Assembly (NCBI RefSeq): GCF_013374115.1 | Contig: NZ_AP022673.1 | Location: 2,690,001 to 2,754,000, forward strand | Source of the DNA: Sphingomonas sp. HMP9 | Lineage (GTDB): Bacteria; Pseudomonadota; Alphaproteobacteria; Sphingomonadales; Sphingomonadaceae | DNA length: 64,000 nucleotides | Reading direction: 5' to 3' | Part shown: one piece after another, positions 26,096-34,891 of the stretch | Position numbering within the stretch: position 1 is the stretch's first letter | Layout: each line of letters starts with the position of its first letter | Notes under the pieces: model-generated | Told to the model about the DNA's origin: nothing | The model's database searches: none | The model's input: the letters and a program-made list of their open reading frames with translations, nothing else | Program-made: the position numbers and the translations under genes

Positions 26096-27877
26096 GTGCG
26101 CGACGATCACGAAGAGGCCCGGCTGGATGCGCTGTATCAGCTGAAGCTGCTCGACACGTCCCCCAGCGAGAGCTTCGACCGCATTACCCGGTTGGCGAGC
26201 CAGATCTTTGGCCTTCCCGTTGCGGCGATATCGCTGACCGATCGCGATCGCCAGTGGTTCAAGTCGCGCGTGGGCGTCGCGCATTGCAGCATCCCCCGCG
26301 ACACGGCGCCGTGCGCGCAGGTCGCCGAATCGTCGCAGTTGCTGGTCATCGAGGATTTTAGCGCAGATCCGTGTTACGCCGACAGCGTGCTGGGCCGCGC
26401 CGGCACGCGTTTCTATGCGGGCGCTCCCCTGGTCACCCGCGACGGCTACGGCCTTGGATCGCTCTGCGTACTCGGGACCGAACCGCGAAAAGCTACCGAC
26501 GCCGAGCTTGCTTCGCTGGTCGATCTGGCTGCGATGGTCATGGCGCAGATCGAATTGGAGCATGCCTTCGGACGGATCGACCCCGTCACCGGCCTGCCGA
26601 CGAGGAACCAGTTTCGCGACGACATGGCGGATCTCGAGCGGGACCATCCGGGCGAGCAGCGTTTTGCCATCGTCGTCGATATGGCGCGTGACGATCAGAT
26701 CAGCCGGATCACCCGCGCCTTGGGGCTTGCACGCGTCGACGATTTCATCCGCGAAGCGTCGCAGGCACTCCGCGTGTCGCTAGGTCCGGGGCGGATTGCC
26801 TATCAGGTCGGCAACGCCCAGTTCGCGTTCATCTCGCCGCCCGGAGTCGAGCAACTGGCATATGTGACGCTGCTCAAGGCGAGCTTCGAGGCGATGCATG
26901 CATCGTCCTCCGTCCGCTTCGTCACGAACGTCGCGATCGGCGTACGATCGTTCATCGTCGGCACCGTATCGGCCGATGACGTCCTGCGCGGTGCAGCCAG
27001 CGCGGCGCAGGATGCGCGGGGTACCGACAACGCGATCGCCCTCCATTCGCCCGCAAACGACATCGCGCATCGCCGTCAATACGGGCTTTTGCAGGATTTC
27101 GGTGCGGCGCTCGAGGCAGGCGACGAGTTACGGCTGATGTACCAGCCGCGGATCGAGCTGGCGACCGGCCGCTGCCTCGGTGCGGAAGCACTGTTGCGGT
27201 GGCGACACCCCAAGCTGGGCGACGTATCGCCTGCCGAATTCATCCCGATCATCGAGCAGACGTCGCATGCGCGGCCGACGACGCAGTGGGTGCTCGACAC
27301 GGCAATGGATCAACTCGTGGAATGGACCCCCTCGGGTATCCTGCCCATGCTGTCGGTCAACATCTCCGCGGCCAACCTCGGCGAAGCGGATATCATTCAG
27401 CGGATCCAGCGCGCGTTGCTGACGCGAAACCTGCCACCGGGACGACTGGAGATCGAGCTGACCGAGAGCGCGATCATGGATCAGCCGGACCAGGCGCTCG
27501 CCATGCTGCGCGAACTGGCGAGAACAGGCATTTGTCTGGCGATCGACGATTTCGGGACCGGGCATAGCAGCCTTGCCTATCTGCAACGGCTGCCGGCGCG
27601 GATCGTGAAGATCGACCAGACGTTCATGCAGAACCTGACCGAGATGCACGGGCCCGATTTCGTGCTGGTGGAAACGATGATCGGTCTTGCGCACAAGCTG
27701 GGCTACCGCGTGGTGGCGGAGGGGATCGAAACGCCGGAAGCGGCCGCGATCCTGATGCAACTCGGGTGCGAGGAAGCGCAAGGCTTCTGGTTCGCGCGGC
27801 CGATGGAGGCCGATCAGTTCGCAGCCTGGCTTTCGGATCGACAGGATGACGAGACCGCCGAACCATCTTATATCTGA
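26096..27877 (+). CDS. GAF-(degenerate GGDEF)-EAL c-di-GMP phosphodiesterase
   Basis: A 593-residue cytosolic protein. GAF domain, about residues 20-155, contains RITRLASQIFGLPVAAISLT. Residues 160-310 are GGDEF-like but lack the GGDEF motif (VGNAQF there), so cyclase activity is not expected. The C-terminal EAL domain (about 330-580) keeps the catalytic signature: GAEALLRW (Glu near 363), LTESAIMD, LAIDDFGTGHSSLAYL, KIDQTF and VAEGIET. It should hydrolyse c-di-GMP to pGpG, with the GAF domain or degenerate GGDEF setting the activity. The start is GTG 26096 behind AAAGGA. It lies 158 nt upstream of the PYP gene. Confidence 0.9.
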   Translation: MRDDHEEARLDALYQLKLLDTSPSESFDRITRLASQIFGLPVAAISLTDRDRQWFKSRVGVAHCSIPRDTAPCAQVAESSQLLVIEDFSADPCYADSVLGRAGTRFYAGAPLVTRDGYGLGSLCVLGTEPRKATDAELASLVDLAAMVMAQIELEHAFGRIDPVTGLPTRNQFRDDMADLERDHPGEQRFAIVVDMARDDQISRITRALGLARVDDFIREASQALRVSLGPGRIAYQVGNAQFAFISPPGVEQLAYVTLLKASFEAMHASSSVRFVTNVAIGVRSFIVGTVSADDVLRGAASAAQDARGTDNAIALHSPANDIAHRRQYGLLQDFGAALEAGDELRLMYQPRIELATGRCLGAEALLRWRHPKLGDVSPAEFIPIIEQTSHARPTTQWVLDTAMDQLVEWTPSGILPMLSVNISAANLGEADIIQRIQRALLTRNLPPGRLEIELTESAIMDQPDQALAMLRELARTGICLAIDDFGTGHSSLAYLQRLPARIVKIDQTFMQNLTEMHGPDFVLVETMIGLAHKLGYRVVAEGIETPEAAAILMQLGCEEAQGFWFARPMEADQFAAWLSDRQDDETAEPSYI

Positions 27878-28035: not shown

Positions 28036-28404
28036 GTGTCAGAAATCGAATCGAGTTTCGAGACAATAACGTTGCGCAATCTCGACGCGATGAACGAGCA
28101 GGCGCGCGATGCACTGCCGTACGGCGTCGTCGGCTTTGCCGCGGACACGATCGTGCAGACCTATAATGCGACGGAGGCGCGGCTGTCGGGGCTTGATCCC
28201 GCGACCGTGATCGGCGTGCCGTTCTTCGAGGCGGTGGCGCAGTGCATGAACAACTTCATGGTGGCGCAGCGGTTCGAGGACGAACCCGAACTCGACGCCA
28301 TCATCCCCTACGTCCTGACGTTGCGGATGCGACCGACCAAGGCGCGGCTGCGGTTGCTGGCAACCGCCGGGATCACGCGACGCTACGTGCTGATCGAACG
28401 CTAA
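28036..28404 (+). CDS. pyp: Photoactive yellow protein homologue (PAS blue-light receptor)
   Basis: A 122-residue single PAS protein alignable without gaps near the pocket to Halorhodospira PYP (offset +1). The chromophore thioester Cys is Cys70 (FFEAVAQC), and the hydrogen-bonding pair is Tyr43 and Glu47 (QTYNATEARL). Thr50 becomes Ser51 and Arg52 becomes Leu53. MRPTKARLRL matches the PYP MTPTKVKVHM segment. PYP binds trans-p-coumaroyl and isomerises on blue light. The PYP-type 4-coumarate:CoA ligase two genes downstream supports a holoprotein. GTG start at 28036 behind GAGGAG. No tyrosine ammonia-lyase gene, the usual chromophore source, is in this window. Confidence 0.9.
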   Translation: MSEIESSFETITLRNLDAMNEQARDALPYGVVGFAADTIVQTYNATEARLSGLDPATVIGVPFFEAVAQCMNNFMVAQRFEDEPELDAIIPYVLTLRMRPTKARLRLLATAGITRRYVLIER

Positions 28405-28414
28405 GACCAGGCGG

Positions 28415-29704
28415 ATGACCGACATGTCCAGCGAGCAGGAGCTACTCGAATTTCTCTATGCCTGTCCCGTCGGGCTGATCGAATGCGACGCGGCGGGCGA
28501 GATCGGCATGATGAACCCGCATGCGATGCAGCATCTGTTGCCGCTTGCCGGTGCCCGAAATGCCAGCAACCTGTTCGCCGCCCTCGAACAGCATGCGCCC
28601 GAATTGCGGAGCATGGCGGCGGCATTCGTACCGGCATCCGGTCGCATCTGCGACGGACACCGGATCTTCGTCGAGTTGGGACCCGGGCGGCAGGGCATGG
28701 TGCCGAAGGTGCTGGCCTGTACGCTGGTCAAGCTCGGACCCGATCGATTGATGGCCACGCTCGCCGACGTAAGCCAGCAGGTCGTCCAGGAAAACCGCCT
28801 GCGCCAGGCCGATGCCTGGTTTGCCACGGTGCTCGACGACGTCGACGGCTATGCCGCGCTGACGATCACGCCCGACGGCGAGATCGCATCGGCCAATAGC
28901 TGCTTCCTGAACCAGACGGGCCATGCACCCGCCGACGTCATCGGTCACAATCTTGCGGATGTGCTCGGCACCGACGTGCCGGGGGACGACATGCGTCTCG
29001 ACGAGCAGTTGGTGATCGCCGGTCGGGATGGGTGGCATCTGCAGGAAGGATGGCAGCAGCGCGCCGACGGGAAACGCTTCTGGTGCCAGCGCCTCGTCGT
29101 CGCGCAATCGACGGGCGATCCGCTGAAGCCGCGTCGCTTCTCCGTGGTGCTGCGCGACGTGCCGCGGCCCGAGGCGGCGACGGGAGATTTGCGGCGGCTG
29201 CTGACGTCCGATCATTTGACCGGTGCGGCCAATCGACGGCACTTCAGCCAGGCGATGGCGAAAGCGCAGGCCCGCTCGCGCGATCGGCACGAACCAGTGT
29301 CGATGATCGCGCTCGACCTGGATCATTTCAAGGCAGTCAACGACAGCCACGGCCATCCCGCCGGCGACACGCTGCTATGCCGGGTGACCGAAGTCTGCAC
29401 CGCGTTGCTGCCGCCGAGCGGCGTGTTCGCGCGTCTTGGCGGCGAAGAGTTCGGCGTCCTTCTCCCCCGCTACGATCATGCGCAGGCGATGGCACTTGCC
29501 GAGCAACTGCGCGCCGAGATCGAAACCGTCGCAGTGGAAACGTCGGGCGGCCTGTTGCACGTTACCGCGAGCCTGGGATGCGCGACGCTGGAGGAAGCCG
29601 ACGGCTCGATCGACGCGCTGATCGCGCTGGCGGACAGGCGCCTTTACGCTGCCAAGCGGGCGGGCCGGAACCAGGTTTGCGACAGCCAGTCCGACGCTAC
29701 GTGA
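28415..29704 (+). CDS. PAS-PAS-GGDEF diguanylate cyclase
   Basis: A 429-residue protein. Two PAS-like regions (about 10-115 and 130-235; FLYACPVGLIECDAAGEIGM, and LDDVDGYAALTITPDGEIAS) precede a GGDEF domain from about residue 265. The active site is intact: GGEEF at residues 342-346, DLDHFKAVNDSHGHPAGD and ARLGGEEFGVLLP. The RxxD inhibitory I-site is absent (PPSG there), so product feedback is not expected. It makes c-di-GMP from GTP. It starts 10 nt after the pyp stop and its TGA overlaps the pcl start (GTGA), so the three genes form one operon. It is the likely output of the light sensor. Confidence 0.9.
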   Translation: MTDMSSEQELLEFLYACPVGLIECDAAGEIGMMNPHAMQHLLPLAGARNASNLFAALEQHAPELRSMAAAFVPASGRICDGHRIFVELGPGRQGMVPKVLACTLVKLGPDRLMATLADVSQQVVQENRLRQADAWFATVLDDVDGYAALTITPDGEIASANSCFLNQTGHAPADVIGHNLADVLGTDVPGDDMRLDEQLVIAGRDGWHLQEGWQQRADGKRFWCQRLVVAQSTGDPLKPRRFSVVLRDVPRPEAATGDLRRLLTSDHLTGAANRRHFSQAMAKAQARSRDRHEPVSMIALDLDHFKAVNDSHGHPAGDTLLCRVTEVCTALLPPSGVFARLGGEEFGVLLPRYDHAQAMALAEQLRAEIETVAVETSGGLLHVTASLGCATLEEADGSIDALIALADRRLYAAKRAGRNQVCDSQSDAT

Positions 29705-30900
29705 CGGTCGGCGACAGCGTAGTCGCGGGCGTCGCGACAGGCGGGCTCCGGCGATCGGCTGCGCACCGGATCGCCTGCGCGGTCGTGACGGCGGAAATAC
29801 GTCGCCTGCGGGATGGCGACCTGTCTCGCCTGCCGGCCGTCGACTGGTCCGAGGACATGCCGATCGGTGACGAAGGACTGGGACTGGACTCGATCGAGCA
29901 ACTGGGCGCGCTCGGCGCGTTGGCCGAGACGTTTGGCCTGGCTGACGACCTGTTCGGTGCTGAACCGCCGGGGCGAGTCGGTGCATGGATCGACTGGATC
30001 ATGGCGGACGGCGACACCGTCGATCGCCGGATCACCGTCACGACATCGGGCTCGACCGGCGCGCCTCGCGCCTGCAGCCACGCGCTTGCGGATCTGCTCG
30101 ACGAGGCCGCCTATCTCGGCACACGCCTCGCGGATCGCCGGCGGGTCGTTGCGATGGTCCCTGCGCATCATCTGTACGGCATGGTCTGGACCGCGCTGCT
30201 GCCGGCTGCGCTGGGCGTACCCGTCGTCATTCGAACGATCGGTGCGCCGCTGGACCTGACGGCGGGCGATATCGTCATCGCGGTACCGGAGCAGTGGCTG
30301 GCCCTGTCGCGGATCGTAAGGCGTTTTCCCGACGATATCGTCGGCGTCAGTTCGGCAGGCGTGCTCGACGACCGCGTCGCGACCGGCCTATTGGCGGCGG
30401 GGTTGGCGCGTCTCGTCGATGTCTATGGCGCGTCCGAAACGAGCGCGATCGCGATCCGCGACGTCCCCGCATCCACCTACGACCTGCTGCCGCGCTGGCA
30501 TCTGGCCTCGTGTGACGATGGCGACTGGCACCTCGTCGATCGCAGCGGGGGACGGGTCGAACTCCCCGACAGGATCGACCGAACGGGAGACCGCGCGCTA
30601 CGACCGATCGGGCGACGCGACGGCGCGGTGCAGGTCGGCGGGCACAATGTCTGGCCGGACCGGGTCGCGCGGATATTGCGCGGCGCCGACGGGGTAGCGG
30701 ACGTGGCGGTGCGGCTTCATGCGAATGGCCGCCTGAAGGCCTTCATCGTCCCCATCGACGGGCGAGACCTCGACGACCTGTCCGCTACGCTCGATCGCGT
30801 GGTCGCCGACCGACTGACCGCTGCCGAGCGGCCAAAGAGTTTCCGCTTCGGGAACAGCCTGCCGCGCGGCGAGATGGGGAAGCTGGCGGACTGGGTCTGA
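29701..30900 (+). CDS. pcl: 4-coumarate:CoA ligase of the photoactive yellow protein family
   Basis: A 399-residue AMP-forming ligase, far shorter than plant 4CL, like the TIGR02372 PYP-activation family. The P-loop is TTSGSTGAPRACSH (near 115), the A5 motif YGASETSAIA, a GRRDGAVQVGGHNVWP hinge and the C-terminal catalytic Lys394 in PRGEMGK. Residues about 25-90 resemble an acyl-carrier fold (GLGLDSIEQLG, Ser64 in the position of a phosphopantetheine serine). It would activate p-coumarate to its CoA ester for attachment to PYP Cys70. Its GTG start at 29701 overlaps the cyclase TGA; the frame is open upstream to 29032, but that part is antisense-like. Confidence 0.88.
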   Translation: MTVGDSVVAGVATGGLRRSAAHRIACAVVTAEIRRLRDGDLSRLPAVDWSEDMPIGDEGLGLDSIEQLGALGALAETFGLADDLFGAEPPGRVGAWIDWIMADGDTVDRRITVTTSGSTGAPRACSHALADLLDEAAYLGTRLADRRRVVAMVPAHHLYGMVWTALLPAALGVPVVIRTIGAPLDLTAGDIVIAVPEQWLALSRIVRRFPDDIVGVSSAGVLDDRVATGLLAAGLARLVDVYGASETSAIAIRDVPASTYDLLPRWHLASCDDGDWHLVDRSGGRVELPDRIDRTGDRALRPIGRRDGAVQVGGHNVWPDRVARILRGADGVADVAVRLHANGRLKAFIVPIDGRDLDDLSATLDRVVADRLTAAERPKSFRFGNSLPRGEMGKLADWV

Positions 30901-30910
30901 GCGACGGCGT

Positions 30911-32437
30911 TCAGCGTGATGCCGTCATCCGTCGCGATCCGGACGGCGAGGTGAAGGTGCCGCCGGATCGAACCACGCTGGTCGCGTCGGTGCGATCCGC
31001 AATGATCCGCAGGTCGGCGCGTACCGCGGCCCGGTCGACGTCCAGCCTCACCCACCCAGCATGCTCGACGTCATGGAACCGTATGTGCGGATTGTTCCGG
31101 TCCACGTCGCCGAACCGACCCGCGGGGGGCGACGCGGCGCCCAGCGCCGACGTGACGATCTCGCTGCCGATCTGTGCGCCGCCGGGCCCATCCAGATCGT
31201 TCACCCAGAAGGAATGCACGTCGCCGCTGAGCACGATCGGATTGCGCACGCTTGGCCGGCGCATCTCGTCGAGCAGTCGTTCGCGGTTGGCGGCATATCC
31301 GTCCCACTGGTCGCTAAAGGTCGATCGCCGCGTACCGTCCAGCCATAGCGGCGCGAAGAACACCTGTTGCGCGATCAGCGACCAGGGGCGGTGTTCGCGC
31401 GCCAGACGATCGGACAGCCACCGTTCCTGCGCCGCGCCCATGATCGTCCGCGCCGGTGCCGCGGCCTCCGCGCACGCATCGAGCGTCACGTTGCGCGCGA
31501 CGTTTTTGGCGGCACAGGGCGGTGCGCTACGATATTGCCGCGTGTCGAGCACCGACAGCGAAGCGAGGTCCGCCCAGTCCACGCTGCGATACAACCGCGG
31601 TTCGCGCCTGCCGCGCCACAGGCTCGGGCGGATCGGCATATGCTCGAAATACGCCTGGTACGCCGCCGCCCGTCGCGGTGCGAACGACGCGGGGGGCAGT
31701 CCCTCACGGTTGGCGAGCCCGGCATAATCGTTCAGCACCTCGTGATCGTCCCACGTCACCAGCCACGGACATGCGCGATGCGCCGCCTGCAGATCGGGAT
31801 CGGTCTTGTAGAGCGCGTGGCGCTGGCGATAGCCGGCGAGGTCGCGGGGTTCGGGCGCGCCGAAATCACGGACGCGCGCACCGTCGGGATAGCTGTTCTC
31901 GTAGATGTAATCGCCGAGTTGCAGGATCAGGTCGGGCTCGGCAGCGACGATGTCGCGGTACACGCCGAACCGCGCCTGCTCCCAATGCTGACACGACGTC
32001 ACCGCAAGCCGCAAGCCGTCCGCGACCGTCGGCACGGTGGCCGCGCGGCCGATGCTGCTGGTCGCGCCGAGCGCATGGAACCGGTACCAATAGGGTCGAC
32101 CCGGGCGGAGTCCCGCGATCTCGACATGGACCGAATGCGCGCGCTCGGGATGGGCCAGCCCCTGCCCGGCGCGGACGATGTGCCGGAACGCCGCGTCCGT
32201 GGCGATCTCATACCGCACCAGCACCGCTGCTGCCGCCAGTGGCGCCGCACGCGCGCCGACCAATCGGGTCCACAACACGAAGCCTTCGCTGTCGGGATCG
32301 CCGCTCGCGATACCCAGGGCGAACGGATCGGCATCGCTGCGCGCGGCGGCATCGACCGCGATCGAGGGGAGCGCGGCAAGCGAGGCCATCGCACCGAGCA
32401 CGGCACGCCGATGCCACAGGAAATCCGGACTGGTCAT
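30911..32437 (-). CDS. phoD: PhoD-type alkaline phosphatase/phosphodiesterase
   Basis: A 508-residue protein from ATG 32437. The N-terminus has a twin-arginine signal, FLWHRRAVLGAMASLAALP. Metal-ligand motifs match PhoD: LAVTSCQHWEQARFG, LILQLGDYIYENSYPDG (Asp-x-Tyr), LVTWDDHEVLNDYAG and VLSGDVHSFWVNDLDG with its HS. PhoD releases phosphate from phosphodiesters and monoesters in the periplasm and uses Fe/Ca. It would be exported folded by the Tat system. Divergent from a TonB receptor across 165 bp that carries 11-bp-spaced Pho-box-like repeats; it ends 10 nt from the converging pcl stop. Confidence 0.92.
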   Translation of the reverse strand: MTSPDFLWHRRAVLGAMASLAALPSIAVDAAARSDADPFALGIASGDPDSEGFVLWTRLVGARAAPLAAAAVLVRYEIATDAAFRHIVRAGQGLAHPERAHSVHVEIAGLRPGRPYWYRFHALGATSSIGRAATVPTVADGLRLAVTSCQHWEQARFGVYRDIVAAEPDLILQLGDYIYENSYPDGARVRDFGAPEPRDLAGYRQRHALYKTDPDLQAAHRACPWLVTWDDHEVLNDYAGLANREGLPPASFAPRRAAAYQAYFEHMPIRPSLWRGRREPRLYRSVDWADLASLSVLDTRQYRSAPPCAAKNVARNVTLDACAEAAAPARTIMGAAQERWLSDRLAREHRPWSLIAQQVFFAPLWLDGTRRSTFSDQWDGYAANRERLLDEMRRPSVRNPIVLSGDVHSFWVNDLDGPGGAQIGSEIVTSALGAASPPAGRFGDVDRNNPHIRFHDVEHAGWVRLDVDRAAVRADLRIIADRTDATSVVRSGGTFTSPSGSRRMTASR

Positions 32438-32458
32438 GCGTTCGCCTATCGCCGTCCG

Positions 32459-32476
32459 ATGACCGGCGCGTGACAC
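32459..32476 (-). promoter_or_regulatory. Candidate Pho box upstream of phoD
   Basis: On the reverse strand GTGTCAC-GCGC-CGGTCAT gives two 7-mers 11 bp apart, matching CTGTCAT-N4-CTGTCAT at 5 and 6 of 7 positions. It starts 22 nt upstream of the phoD ATG, where a PhoB-replaced -35 region would sit. PhoB binding is inferred from sequence alone. Confidence 0.35.
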
Positions 32477-32485
32477 TTCGGCGAA

Positions 32486-32514
32486 ACGTCACAATTCCGT
32501 AGCGTACCCGTAAT
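32486..32514 (+). promoter_or_regulatory. Weak Pho-box-like 11-bp repeats for the TonB receptor
   Basis: Three 7-mers, ACGTCAC, CCGTAGC and CCGTAAT, start at 32486, 32497 and 32508, exactly 11 bp apart as in multi-site Pho boxes. Each matches CTGTCAT at only 3-5 positions, so the spacing is the stronger argument. They lie 89-117 nt before the receptor start. Confidence 0.25.
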
Positions 32515-32602
32515 GAAAGCGACCCGCGCCGCGGTTAGGCGGTCGACAACGATTGCCGCTCCAGCGGCGACGCTCCAGACATTCAACAGGTGGGACCCTC
32601 CA

Positions 32603-34891
32603 GTGATTTCGAAGACGCTTCTGCTTGCCTCGGCCAGCGCGCTGCTGGCCGTCGCCGGGCCTGCCTTCGCGCAGACCGTATCCGACACCGTGCCCGCGCA
32701 AACCGCATCGGAGTCGAACGGCGAGATCGTCGTCTACGGCACCGGGAAAGTCCGCCAGGAACAGACGGTATCGCGCAAGGCGATCGAAATCCTTCCGCCG
32801 GGCAGTTCGCCCCTGAAGGCGGTTGCCCGCCTACCGGGCGTGGCACTCCAGAGCTCGGATCCGTTCGGCAGCTACGAGCTTGGCACGCGCCTCTCGGTAC
32901 GCGGCTTCAACCAGAGCCAGATGGGCTATACGCTCGACGGCGTCCCGCTCGGCGACATGTTCTACAACGGTCATAACGGGCTGCACGTCAGTCGCGCGAT
33001 CGCAGCCGAGAACATCGCCCGCGTCGACGTGTCGCAGGGCGCAGGGTCGCTCGGCATCGCCTCGACCAGCAATCTGGGCGGCAACCTCGAATTCGTCTCG
33101 CGCGCGCCGTCGCAGGTGGCCGGCGGCGAGGTCGCGCTGACCTATGGCATGTACGACACCGTGCATCTGTACGGCCGCCTCGACAGCGGGCAATTGTCGA
33201 CCGGCACGCGGCTGTCGGTCTCGGGCGTGATCCACGACGCAAGCAAGTGGAAGGGATATGGCAACCAGTCCGACACCAAGGTGAACGGCAAGATCGTCCA
33301 GACGCTCGGAGACGCGACGCTGACCGGCTGGCTCAACTACTCGCTCCACAAGGAGCGCAACTATGCCGATCTGTCGCCCGCGACGCTCGACCGGATCGGC
33401 TATGATCTCGACTTCCTGCGCCCCGACTATGCGACCGCCATCCTCCTGTCGCAGGTCAGCGCGAACCAGACCGCGGCGGCCGCCAAGCGCGCGCTGCCCT
33501 TCCCCACCGCCGGCGTCGTGTTCCCCACGCCGTACACCAACGTCAACGACACCTATTACGACAGCGGCGGCGTGCGGCGCGACTGGCTCGGCGCAGTGAC
33601 GCTGGACGTGCCGGTCGCCGACTGGCTCGATACGACCGCCACCTATTACCATCATTACGACAAGGGCAGCGGCGGCATCTATACGCCCGCGGTGTTCTCG
33701 CCCGACGGCTTCGCCTTGTCGGTGCGGACCACCGAATACGGGATCAAGCGCGACGGCGGCATCGCCAACGCGACCGCAAGGCTCGGTGATCACACGATCC
33801 AGCTCGGCTATTGGCACGAGGACAACCGCGCCAGCACGGACCGCAATTACTATGCGGCCAGCCTCACCAACCGTCCCGACGTCACCGATTTCCTCACCAA
33901 CCCGTTCCGCAGCGACTTCCTGACGGACCTGACGACGGTCACCAACCAGTATTTCGTCAGCGACAGCTGGAAGATCCTGGACGCGTTGACGATCGCCGGC
34001 GGGTTCAAGGGGACGCGCGTCGCCAATGGCATCACGACGACGTTCGGCACGCCGTTCATCAACGGCAGGATCGCCGCGAAAGACTGGTTCCAGCCGCAGG
34101 TCGGCGCGACCTACAAGCTCGGCCGCCAGGAGTTCTTCGCCAATTATGCCGAGAACATGCGCGCCTATATCAGCTCGTTCCGCGGCCCGTTCGGTACGAC
34201 GCAAGTCGGCTTCGAGGCGATCCGCGACACGCTGAAGCCCGAGACCTCGCGCACGATCGAGGGCGGTTGGCGGTTCGACCTCGGCAAGCTTCGCGGCGTG
34301 ATCGCGGGCTACGACGTCAAGTTCAAGAACCGCCTGCTCGCGGCGTTCAGTGGCGCGAACATCCTGGGGAACCCGAGCATTCTCCAGAACGTCGGTAGCG
34401 TGACGAGCCGCGGCGTGGAGATCGGCGCGACCTATCAGGTCGCCCGCCCGCTCGCGCTGATAGCGTCCTATTCGTACAATGACAGCACGTACGACGACGA
34501 CACCGTCAACGGCACCGCCTTCGTCGCGACCAGGGGCATCCGCACCGTCGACACGCCAGCGCACCTTGCCAAGGGCGAGATCAATTATGACGACGGCACG
34601 GTCTTCGGTAACGTCGCGGGCGCCTTCACCTCGCGGCGCAACGTCACCTACACCGGCGACGTGACGGTCAAGGGATACACGCTGTTCGATGCGGCGATCG
34701 GCTATCGCTTCCCGGTGACGAGTGCGCTCGCCGGCGTCGAGATCCAGGTCAACGCAGTGAACCTGACCGACCAGAAATACATCGCCGCGCTGGGATCGGG
34801 CCAGTTCTTCAATAGCGCGTCGTCGCTCAACAACACGATGCAGGCGGGGTCGCCGCGCCAGGTATTCGGGACGATCCGCCGCCGCTTTTGA
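32603..34891 (+). CDS. TonB-dependent outer-membrane receptor
   Basis: From GTG 32603 the product is 762 residues. The start was chosen because it opens a normal signal peptide (VISKTLLLASASALLAVAGPAFA); the frame is open 30 codons upstream. The plug (about 50-190) has RLPGVALQSSDPFGSYELGT and YTLDGVPLGDMFYN, then VDVSQGAGSLGIASTSNLGG. The barrel ends in QVFGTIRRRF with a C-terminal Phe. The ligand is unknown. It is divergent from phoD, and both may be phosphate-starvation genes, so a phosphorus compound such as phytate is possible but only inferred. Confidence 0.9.
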   Translation: MISKTLLLASASALLAVAGPAFAQTVSDTVPAQTASESNGEIVVYGTGKVRQEQTVSRKAIEILPPGSSPLKAVARLPGVALQSSDPFGSYELGTRLSVRGFNQSQMGYTLDGVPLGDMFYNGHNGLHVSRAIAAENIARVDVSQGAGSLGIASTSNLGGNLEFVSRAPSQVAGGEVALTYGMYDTVHLYGRLDSGQLSTGTRLSVSGVIHDASKWKGYGNQSDTKVNGKIVQTLGDATLTGWLNYSLHKERNYADLSPATLDRIGYDLDFLRPDYATAILLSQVSANQTAAAAKRALPFPTAGVVFPTPYTNVNDTYYDSGGVRRDWLGAVTLDVPVADWLDTTATYYHHYDKGSGGIYTPAVFSPDGFALSVRTTEYGIKRDGGIANATARLGDHTIQLGYWHEDNRASTDRNYYAASLTNRPDVTDFLTNPFRSDFLTDLTTVTNQYFVSDSWKILDALTIAGGFKGTRVANGITTTFGTPFINGRIAAKDWFQPQVGATYKLGRQEFFANYAENMRAYISSFRGPFGTTQVGFEAIRDTLKPETSRTIEGGWRFDLGKLRGVIAGYDVKFKNRLLAAFSGANILGNPSILQNVGSVTSRGVEIGATYQVARPLALIASYSYNDSTYDDDTVNGTAFVATRGIRTVDTPAHLAKGEINYDDGTVFGNVAGAFTSRRNVTYTGDVTVKGYTLFDAAIGYRFPVTSALAGVEIQVNAVNLTDQKYIAALGSGQFFNSASSLNNTMQAGSPRQVFGTIRRRF

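Follow-up and report, generated by a model that had tools for sequence, protein, structure and literature searches.

A photoactive yellow protein operon of Sphingomonas sp. HMP9 and a candidate PYP-receiver domain on its diguanylate cyclase

The linkage of photoactive yellow protein (PYP) genes to GGDEF genes has already been published (PMC9664959, PMC12826048). Xing et al. 2022 proposed a relay from blue light to c-di-GMP for PYP clade C (PMC9664959), and the survey of 113 pyp operons by Dohmen et al. 2025 counted GGDEF in 29, EAL in 22, pCL in 42 and tyrosine ammonia-lyase (TAL) in 7 (PMC12826048). Blue light reduces biofilm in Idiomarina loihiensis, a result cited in both papers (PMC9664959, PMC12826048). 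The transfer of the signal from a stand-alone PYP is called unknown in the former and an important gap in the latter, and the main text of neither mentions sphingomonads.

The unit described here lies in the window, by which we mean the whole 64,000-nucleotide stretch of Sphingomonas sp. HMP9 that was analysed (NZ_AP022673.1, positions 2,690,001 to 2,754,000); all its features given below are on the + strand. It consists of pyp (28036..28404; GTG start), encoding a single-domain PYP of 122 aa, a gene for a diguanylate cyclase of 429 aa with the architecture PAS1-PAS2-GGDEF (28415..29704), and pcl (29701..30900; GTG start), encoding a p-coumarate-activating ligase of 399 aa. The first-pass annotation had placed a 10-nt gap after pyp (28405-28414) and a 4-nt GTGA overlap of the cyclase gene with pcl (29701-29704), and both are exact. 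Two of its premises fared less well. It regarded the order pyp-cyclase-pcl as unusual, which it is not, because the order is common in sphingomonad carriers and GGDEF was already reported in pyp operons; and it took TAL as the typical companion of pyp, when only 7 of 113 operons have it, against 29 with GGDEF (PMC12826048). We consider it probable, if short of certain, that the three genes constitute a relay from blue light to c-di-GMP in which holo-PYP acts on the cyclase through PAS1, and we infer that light controls c-di-GMP itself. What the sequence itself shows is the genes and their spacing, intact residues for the chromophore and the A-site, a PAS1 exclusive to PYP neighbours within the sets searched, an ACP-like part in Pcl, and a genome devoid of PF00221.

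PYP was found in 5 of the 249 genomes of a family sample, after one match had been dropped as not being a PYP (G056, E 5e-4; 42% over a 57-aa stretch of a frame of 756 aa). Of the 295 genus genomes, 37 had PYP matches at E 1e-3 and 33 of these below E 1e-40; the four with weak matches only (G317, G376, G381 and G521) were treated as having no clade PYP. The surroundings of the matches from both searches gave 40 loci, among which the order pyp-cyclase-pcl proves conserved: the cyclase gene directly follows pyp in 38, and pcl comes after it in 35. The nearest relative (L036) has the same order, and its PYP, cyclase and Pcl are 84-88% identical to those of the window; the PhoD-like phosphatase and TonB receptor genes that stand between pcl and CarD in the window (30911-34891) are absent there. 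A pattern for an EcfG-type stress promoter upstream of pyp occurred in 1 of 41 loci and was rejected. Some genomes carry further pyp copies. In G287 a second, orphan and intact pyp (L037 8426-8779), with neither cyclase nor pcl, adjoins an opposite-strand gene matching the GGDEF-EAL part of the protein encoded upstream of the window unit, and in G286 a second copy (L048 8342-8548), also without a cyclase, is broken after ~70 residues. A second, divergent PYP gene lies ~5 to 7 kb off the clade operon in three loci (L069, L070 and L071), on the other strand and with no PAS1 after it. Two clade PYPs (L203 5995-6357 and L202 13789-14157) are mis-annotated in public records as 'phosphonate transporter', a mis-naming mentioned in PMC9664959. 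Since the PYPs of Devosia psychrophila (L084), Salinisphaera (L112) and Rhodobacteraceae (L110 and L119) fall among sphingomonad PYPs in our tree, and some clade operons are located on plasmids, the pyp unit probably moves horizontally.

Judged from its sequence and model, the window PYP is divergent yet sound. Its sole NCBIfam match at E <=0.01 is TIGR02373 photo_yellow (58.4 bits, E 7e-16), under the curated cut-off of 143.05 bits for a family whose TIGRFAM seed holds four PYPs only (PMC9664959). The top PDB sequence match is Ppr-PYP 1mzu (E 1.7e-13), and the AlphaFold model (pLDDT 85.5) has the PYP fold, with PYPs as top Foldseek matches (E 5.7e-9). The family is defined by Cys69 together with Tyr42 and Glu46 (PMC9664959); the equivalents of these Hh residues in the window PYP are C70, the cysteine for p-coumaroyl (28243-28245), Y43 and E47, and the three are invariant in a 32-row alignment of the clade. 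Because alignment with the PDB relative puts Ser at Hh position 50, a residue tied to absorption at ~432-434 nm in two PYPs (PMC12826048), the absorption band may lie slightly to the blue.

The ligase appears to combine two parts. Its best NCBIfam family is TIGR02372, matched over nearly the whole model with 279 bits, short of the cut-off of 334.7. The adenylation part (30034..30888) matches Pfam AMP-binding from profile position 170 on, and in all 8 Pcl proteins scanned, one of them below the Pfam cut-off, the match starts at position 158-170 of 384. The N-terminal part (29740..30000, approximate limits) is ACP-like: its profile aligns with acyl carrier proteins of the PDB (best E 2.7e-5), with an Asp-Ser pair (29887-29892) on their DSL. 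Of 71 rows, 9 of which repeat a gene already included, 70 have this pair and one has a gap; Pfam carrier-protein models gave no match to the 8 Pcl proteins at E <=1. We take the serine of a DSL-type motif to be the site of phosphopantetheine attachment. As the ACP-like part keeps its serine, a carrier arm of Pcl may load the chromophore onto PYP. Three Pcl genes that adjoin classical PYPs (L200, L201 and L202) have the motif as well, so the ACP-like part is probably general to the Pcl family. It was missed in the first-pass annotation, as was the EAL gene of many relatives. No description of an acyl carrier or phosphopantetheine step for PYP was found in the literature consulted, which is mostly open access and includes PMC3992019.

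The absence of TAL from the window, noted at first pass, extends to the whole genome, where a search for PF00221 (HAL/PAL/TAL) gave no match, the same search being positive in 5 of 14 control genomes. PF00221 is likewise absent from 31 of the 33 PYP-carrying genomes of the genus (G310 and G365 are those that have it), compared with its presence in 97 of the 262 without the clade PYP (Fisher p 1.5e-4, not corrected for kinship). The family also holds histidine ammonia-lyase, so that its presence is not proof of TAL, but the absence of all members excludes the ammonia-lyase route. Given this absence from the genome and from nearly all genus carriers, p-coumarate is probably scavenged from outside; uptake of the precursor from the environment is raised as a possibility in PMC12826048. 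The genus counts fit such uptake and the wider carrier set is mixed: among 48 other PYP carriers 27 have a PF00221 gene and 21 have none, absences that are weak because completeness is not given and some of these genomes are MAGs. The tannase family PF07519 had no match in the HMP9 genome, but no positive control matched either.

Without an ammonia-lyase the sensor would be filled only if p-coumarate is present, and this raises an alternative: PYP might report this plant phenolic as much as light, and the cyclase would then read light AND phenolic. We see this as possible while leaning against it. The genus counts and the 21 carriers devoid of PF00221 speak in its favour, but the gene is present in the other 27, the family includes histidine ammonia-lyases that are lost along lineages, and the habitats lend it faint support, as leaves or lichens appear in 8 of 80 record titles (best 80 of 202 loci), a count without a set to compare it with.

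The relay from PYP to the cyclase draws its main support from PAS1 (~aa 1-122; 28415..28780), the proposed PYP-receiver domain. Searched alone, with the first 130 residues of the cyclase as query, PAS1 was found at E <=1e-5 in 33 of the 295 genus genomes, exactly those with a best PYP match below E 1e-40, and not in the other 262. Each of the 35 copies starts 7 to 33 nt past a PYP match, and only 2 of 37 clade PYPs lack PAS1 and cyclase, namely the second copies of L037 and L048. Beyond the genus, named loci were fetched by PYP pattern alone, and the best 80 of 202, from Pseudomonadota, Acidobacteriota and Myxococcota, were kept; in these, PAS1 comes within 114 nt after 81 of 81 PYPs above 100 bits, and within 60 nt for 79. 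The whole genomes of 48 non-Sphingomonas loci (17 to 93 first-look candidates per genome, match positions being compared with the loci by coordinates) gave 58 PAS1 matches, or 57 genes, one of them broken: 55 matches lie inside the fetched PYP loci, and the remaining three are each beside their own clade PYP. A search of 385 genomes of the class, whose sensitivity was limited by the <=11 first-look candidates scored per genome, found PAS1 in the genome of HMP9 itself and, in G687, a borderline PAS1-like match (E 9e-6) that has no PYP.

The same domain heads different outputs. In the best 80 of 202 named loci it is followed by PAS2-GGDEF in 77 of 87 frames; GGDEF-EAL is the output in six loci, three of them checked with Pfam, and in five it belongs to a second PAS1 gene of the same operon. 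In Archangium the output is HisKA-HATPase (L163) and, in the same genome, HisKA-HATPase-REC (L198), and forms without a recognised output domain occur in L162 and L197. Where both PYP types are present, in stretches of Caballeronia and Indioceanicola, PAS1 stands behind the clade PYP rather than the classical one; a plasmid of Indioceanicola profundi (L201 4352-9497) carries in order a classical pyp, pcl, an ammonia-lyase gene, a clade pyp labelled hypothetical in its annotation, and the GGDEF gene paired with it. The PYP tree, which does not contain Halorhodospira, places 35 PAS1-linked PYPs on one side of a split and 6 without a PAS1 link on the other (support 99/99). Within the sphingomonad cyclases PAS1 is also the best-kept domain, with a mean identity of 70% as against 62% for PAS2 and 66% for GGDEF. 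PAS1 thus behaves in a way that fits a receiver, or docking, domain for PYP. Its exclusivity to PYP neighbours within the sets searched, with one borderline exception, and its re-use on other outputs bear out the earlier proposal that control is exerted in trans: PYP most likely acts on the cyclase through its PAS region. A wider proposition, that PAS1 is a portable receiver through which one clade of stand-alone PYPs drives cyclases, phosphodiesterases and histidine kinases in trans, with scavenged p-coumarate loaded by the carrier and a response only to light plus phenolic, strikes us as a close call that tilts towards doubt.

The exclusivity of PAS1 could partly stem from a single long-lived operon. 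On this line of thought PYP and cyclase would share an operon yet act separately, PAS1 sensing something else, which we find unlikely. A mirror-tree analysis of pairwise distances is what gives it some room, since PAS1 was not clearly favoured as co-evolving with PYP: correlations with PYP distances were 0.64 for PAS1, 0.70 for PAS2 and 0.60 for GGDEF over 69 loci, and 0.85, 0.84 and 0.81, with 0.82 for Pcl, over the 52 loci with pcl. Two things speak against separate action: within the sets searched, PAS1 away from a clade PYP was met only as one borderline match, and next to PYP the domain is also found at the head of other outputs.

Under the relay reading the signal would have to travel through the rest of the cyclase. 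The Pfam scan gave no match for PAS1, and its profile had weak matches only among PDB sequences (best E 0.021); PAS2 (~aa 128-252; 28796..29170) is near Pfam detection, with 25.1 bits for a cut-off of 27. In the predicted structure (mean pLDDT 79.9, pTM 0.48) PAS1 and PAS2 each have a PAS-like order of strands and helices, and helices join them. Foldseek retrieved PAS-GGDEF and tandem-PAS chains with query-length TM-scores <=0.36 among the 50 matches listed, and we therefore make no domain-level claim from it. The GGDEF domain (~aa 258-422; 29186..29680) is matched by Pfam at E 1.7e-38, with an intact A-site, GGEEF (29438-29452), and PPSG instead of RxxD at the I-site position (29411-29422), so the first-pass description of an intact GGEEF without I-site stands. 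GGEEF is kept in 39 of 39 sphingomonad cyclases. RxxD is absent from 30 of these copies, the window included, and present in 9, and it is present in 41 of 81 PAS1 genes with a recognisable A-site (named loci, best 80 of 202). The I-site is thus a variable feature even inside this one cyclase family, and lineages may differ in feedback inhibition.

The relay might then work as follows. Pcl would activate p-coumarate from outside and pass it to Cys70 of PYP, possibly via its own carrier-domain serine. Holo-PYP would dock on PAS1, as the exclusive association suggests, and the photocycle would alter this contact; the change would pass through the helical linker to PAS2 and to the GGEEF cyclase, whose output would change in blue light, in either direction. 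In many relatives a co-encoded EAL phosphodiesterase would complete the loop. A stand-alone EAL gene was found in at least 25 of the 40 loci, following pcl except in L075, where it follows the cyclase gene; 25 is a lower bound because the tblastn query was the window's upstream EAL protein. The choice of start sites made the EAL protein of L062 too short and some Pcl ends over-long, leaving presence counts unaffected. The same search gave no stand-alone EAL gene in the window unit or in 15 of the 40 relatives. In the window, the GAF-GGDEF-EAL gene upstream of pyp on the same strand (26096..27877) may stand in; its membership in the unit is uncertain, because only L036 and L046 among the 40 loci have it in this position. 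That the unit is decaying, as a PYP below the TIGR02373 cut-off and the lack of TAL, EAL gene and I-site might suggest, is very improbable, since the three frames are open with key residues kept, L036 retains the order at 84-88% identity, and the window shares the lack of an EAL gene with 15 of 40 relatives and that of an I-site with most sphingomonad copies (30 of 39, its own among them).

Overall, if the relay operates as proposed, PAS1 offers a concrete candidate for the partner domain of one PYP clade, and sensor and cyclase would form a natural switch of two proteins. From the ACP-like part of Pcl we suspect a step in chromophore loading that we have not found described, and the absence of PF00221 from 31 of 33 genus carriers makes the idea of a scavenged chromophore (PMC12826048) testable. 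The receiver domain and the ACP-like part are what we have not found in print, as far as the literature located goes. By the description of clade C in PMC9664959 (Burkholderiales, GGDEF neighbours), rather than by its tree, the window PYP would belong to that clade, whose members are likewise single-domain PYPs with Tyr42, Glu46 and Cys69 beside a GGDEF gene and have GGDEF/EAL neighbours; the account given there names no receiver domain, unlike the PAS1 proposed here. The operons of Dohmen et al. 2025, as presented in PMC12826048, are described with neither a receiver domain nor a carrier part of Pcl. In the PYP-GGDEF pair of Idiomarina loihiensis PYP is likewise thought to act on the adjacent GGDEF protein (PMC9664959, PMC12826048), and that PYP is assigned to clade A in PMC9664959. 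With the classical Halorhodospira-type pyp-pcl-TAL operon (PMC12826048) the window has pyp and pcl in common; it differs in having no TAL and a cyclase gene between the two, and its PYP stands across the 99/99 split from the six PYPs not linked to PAS1, in a tree without Halorhodospira.
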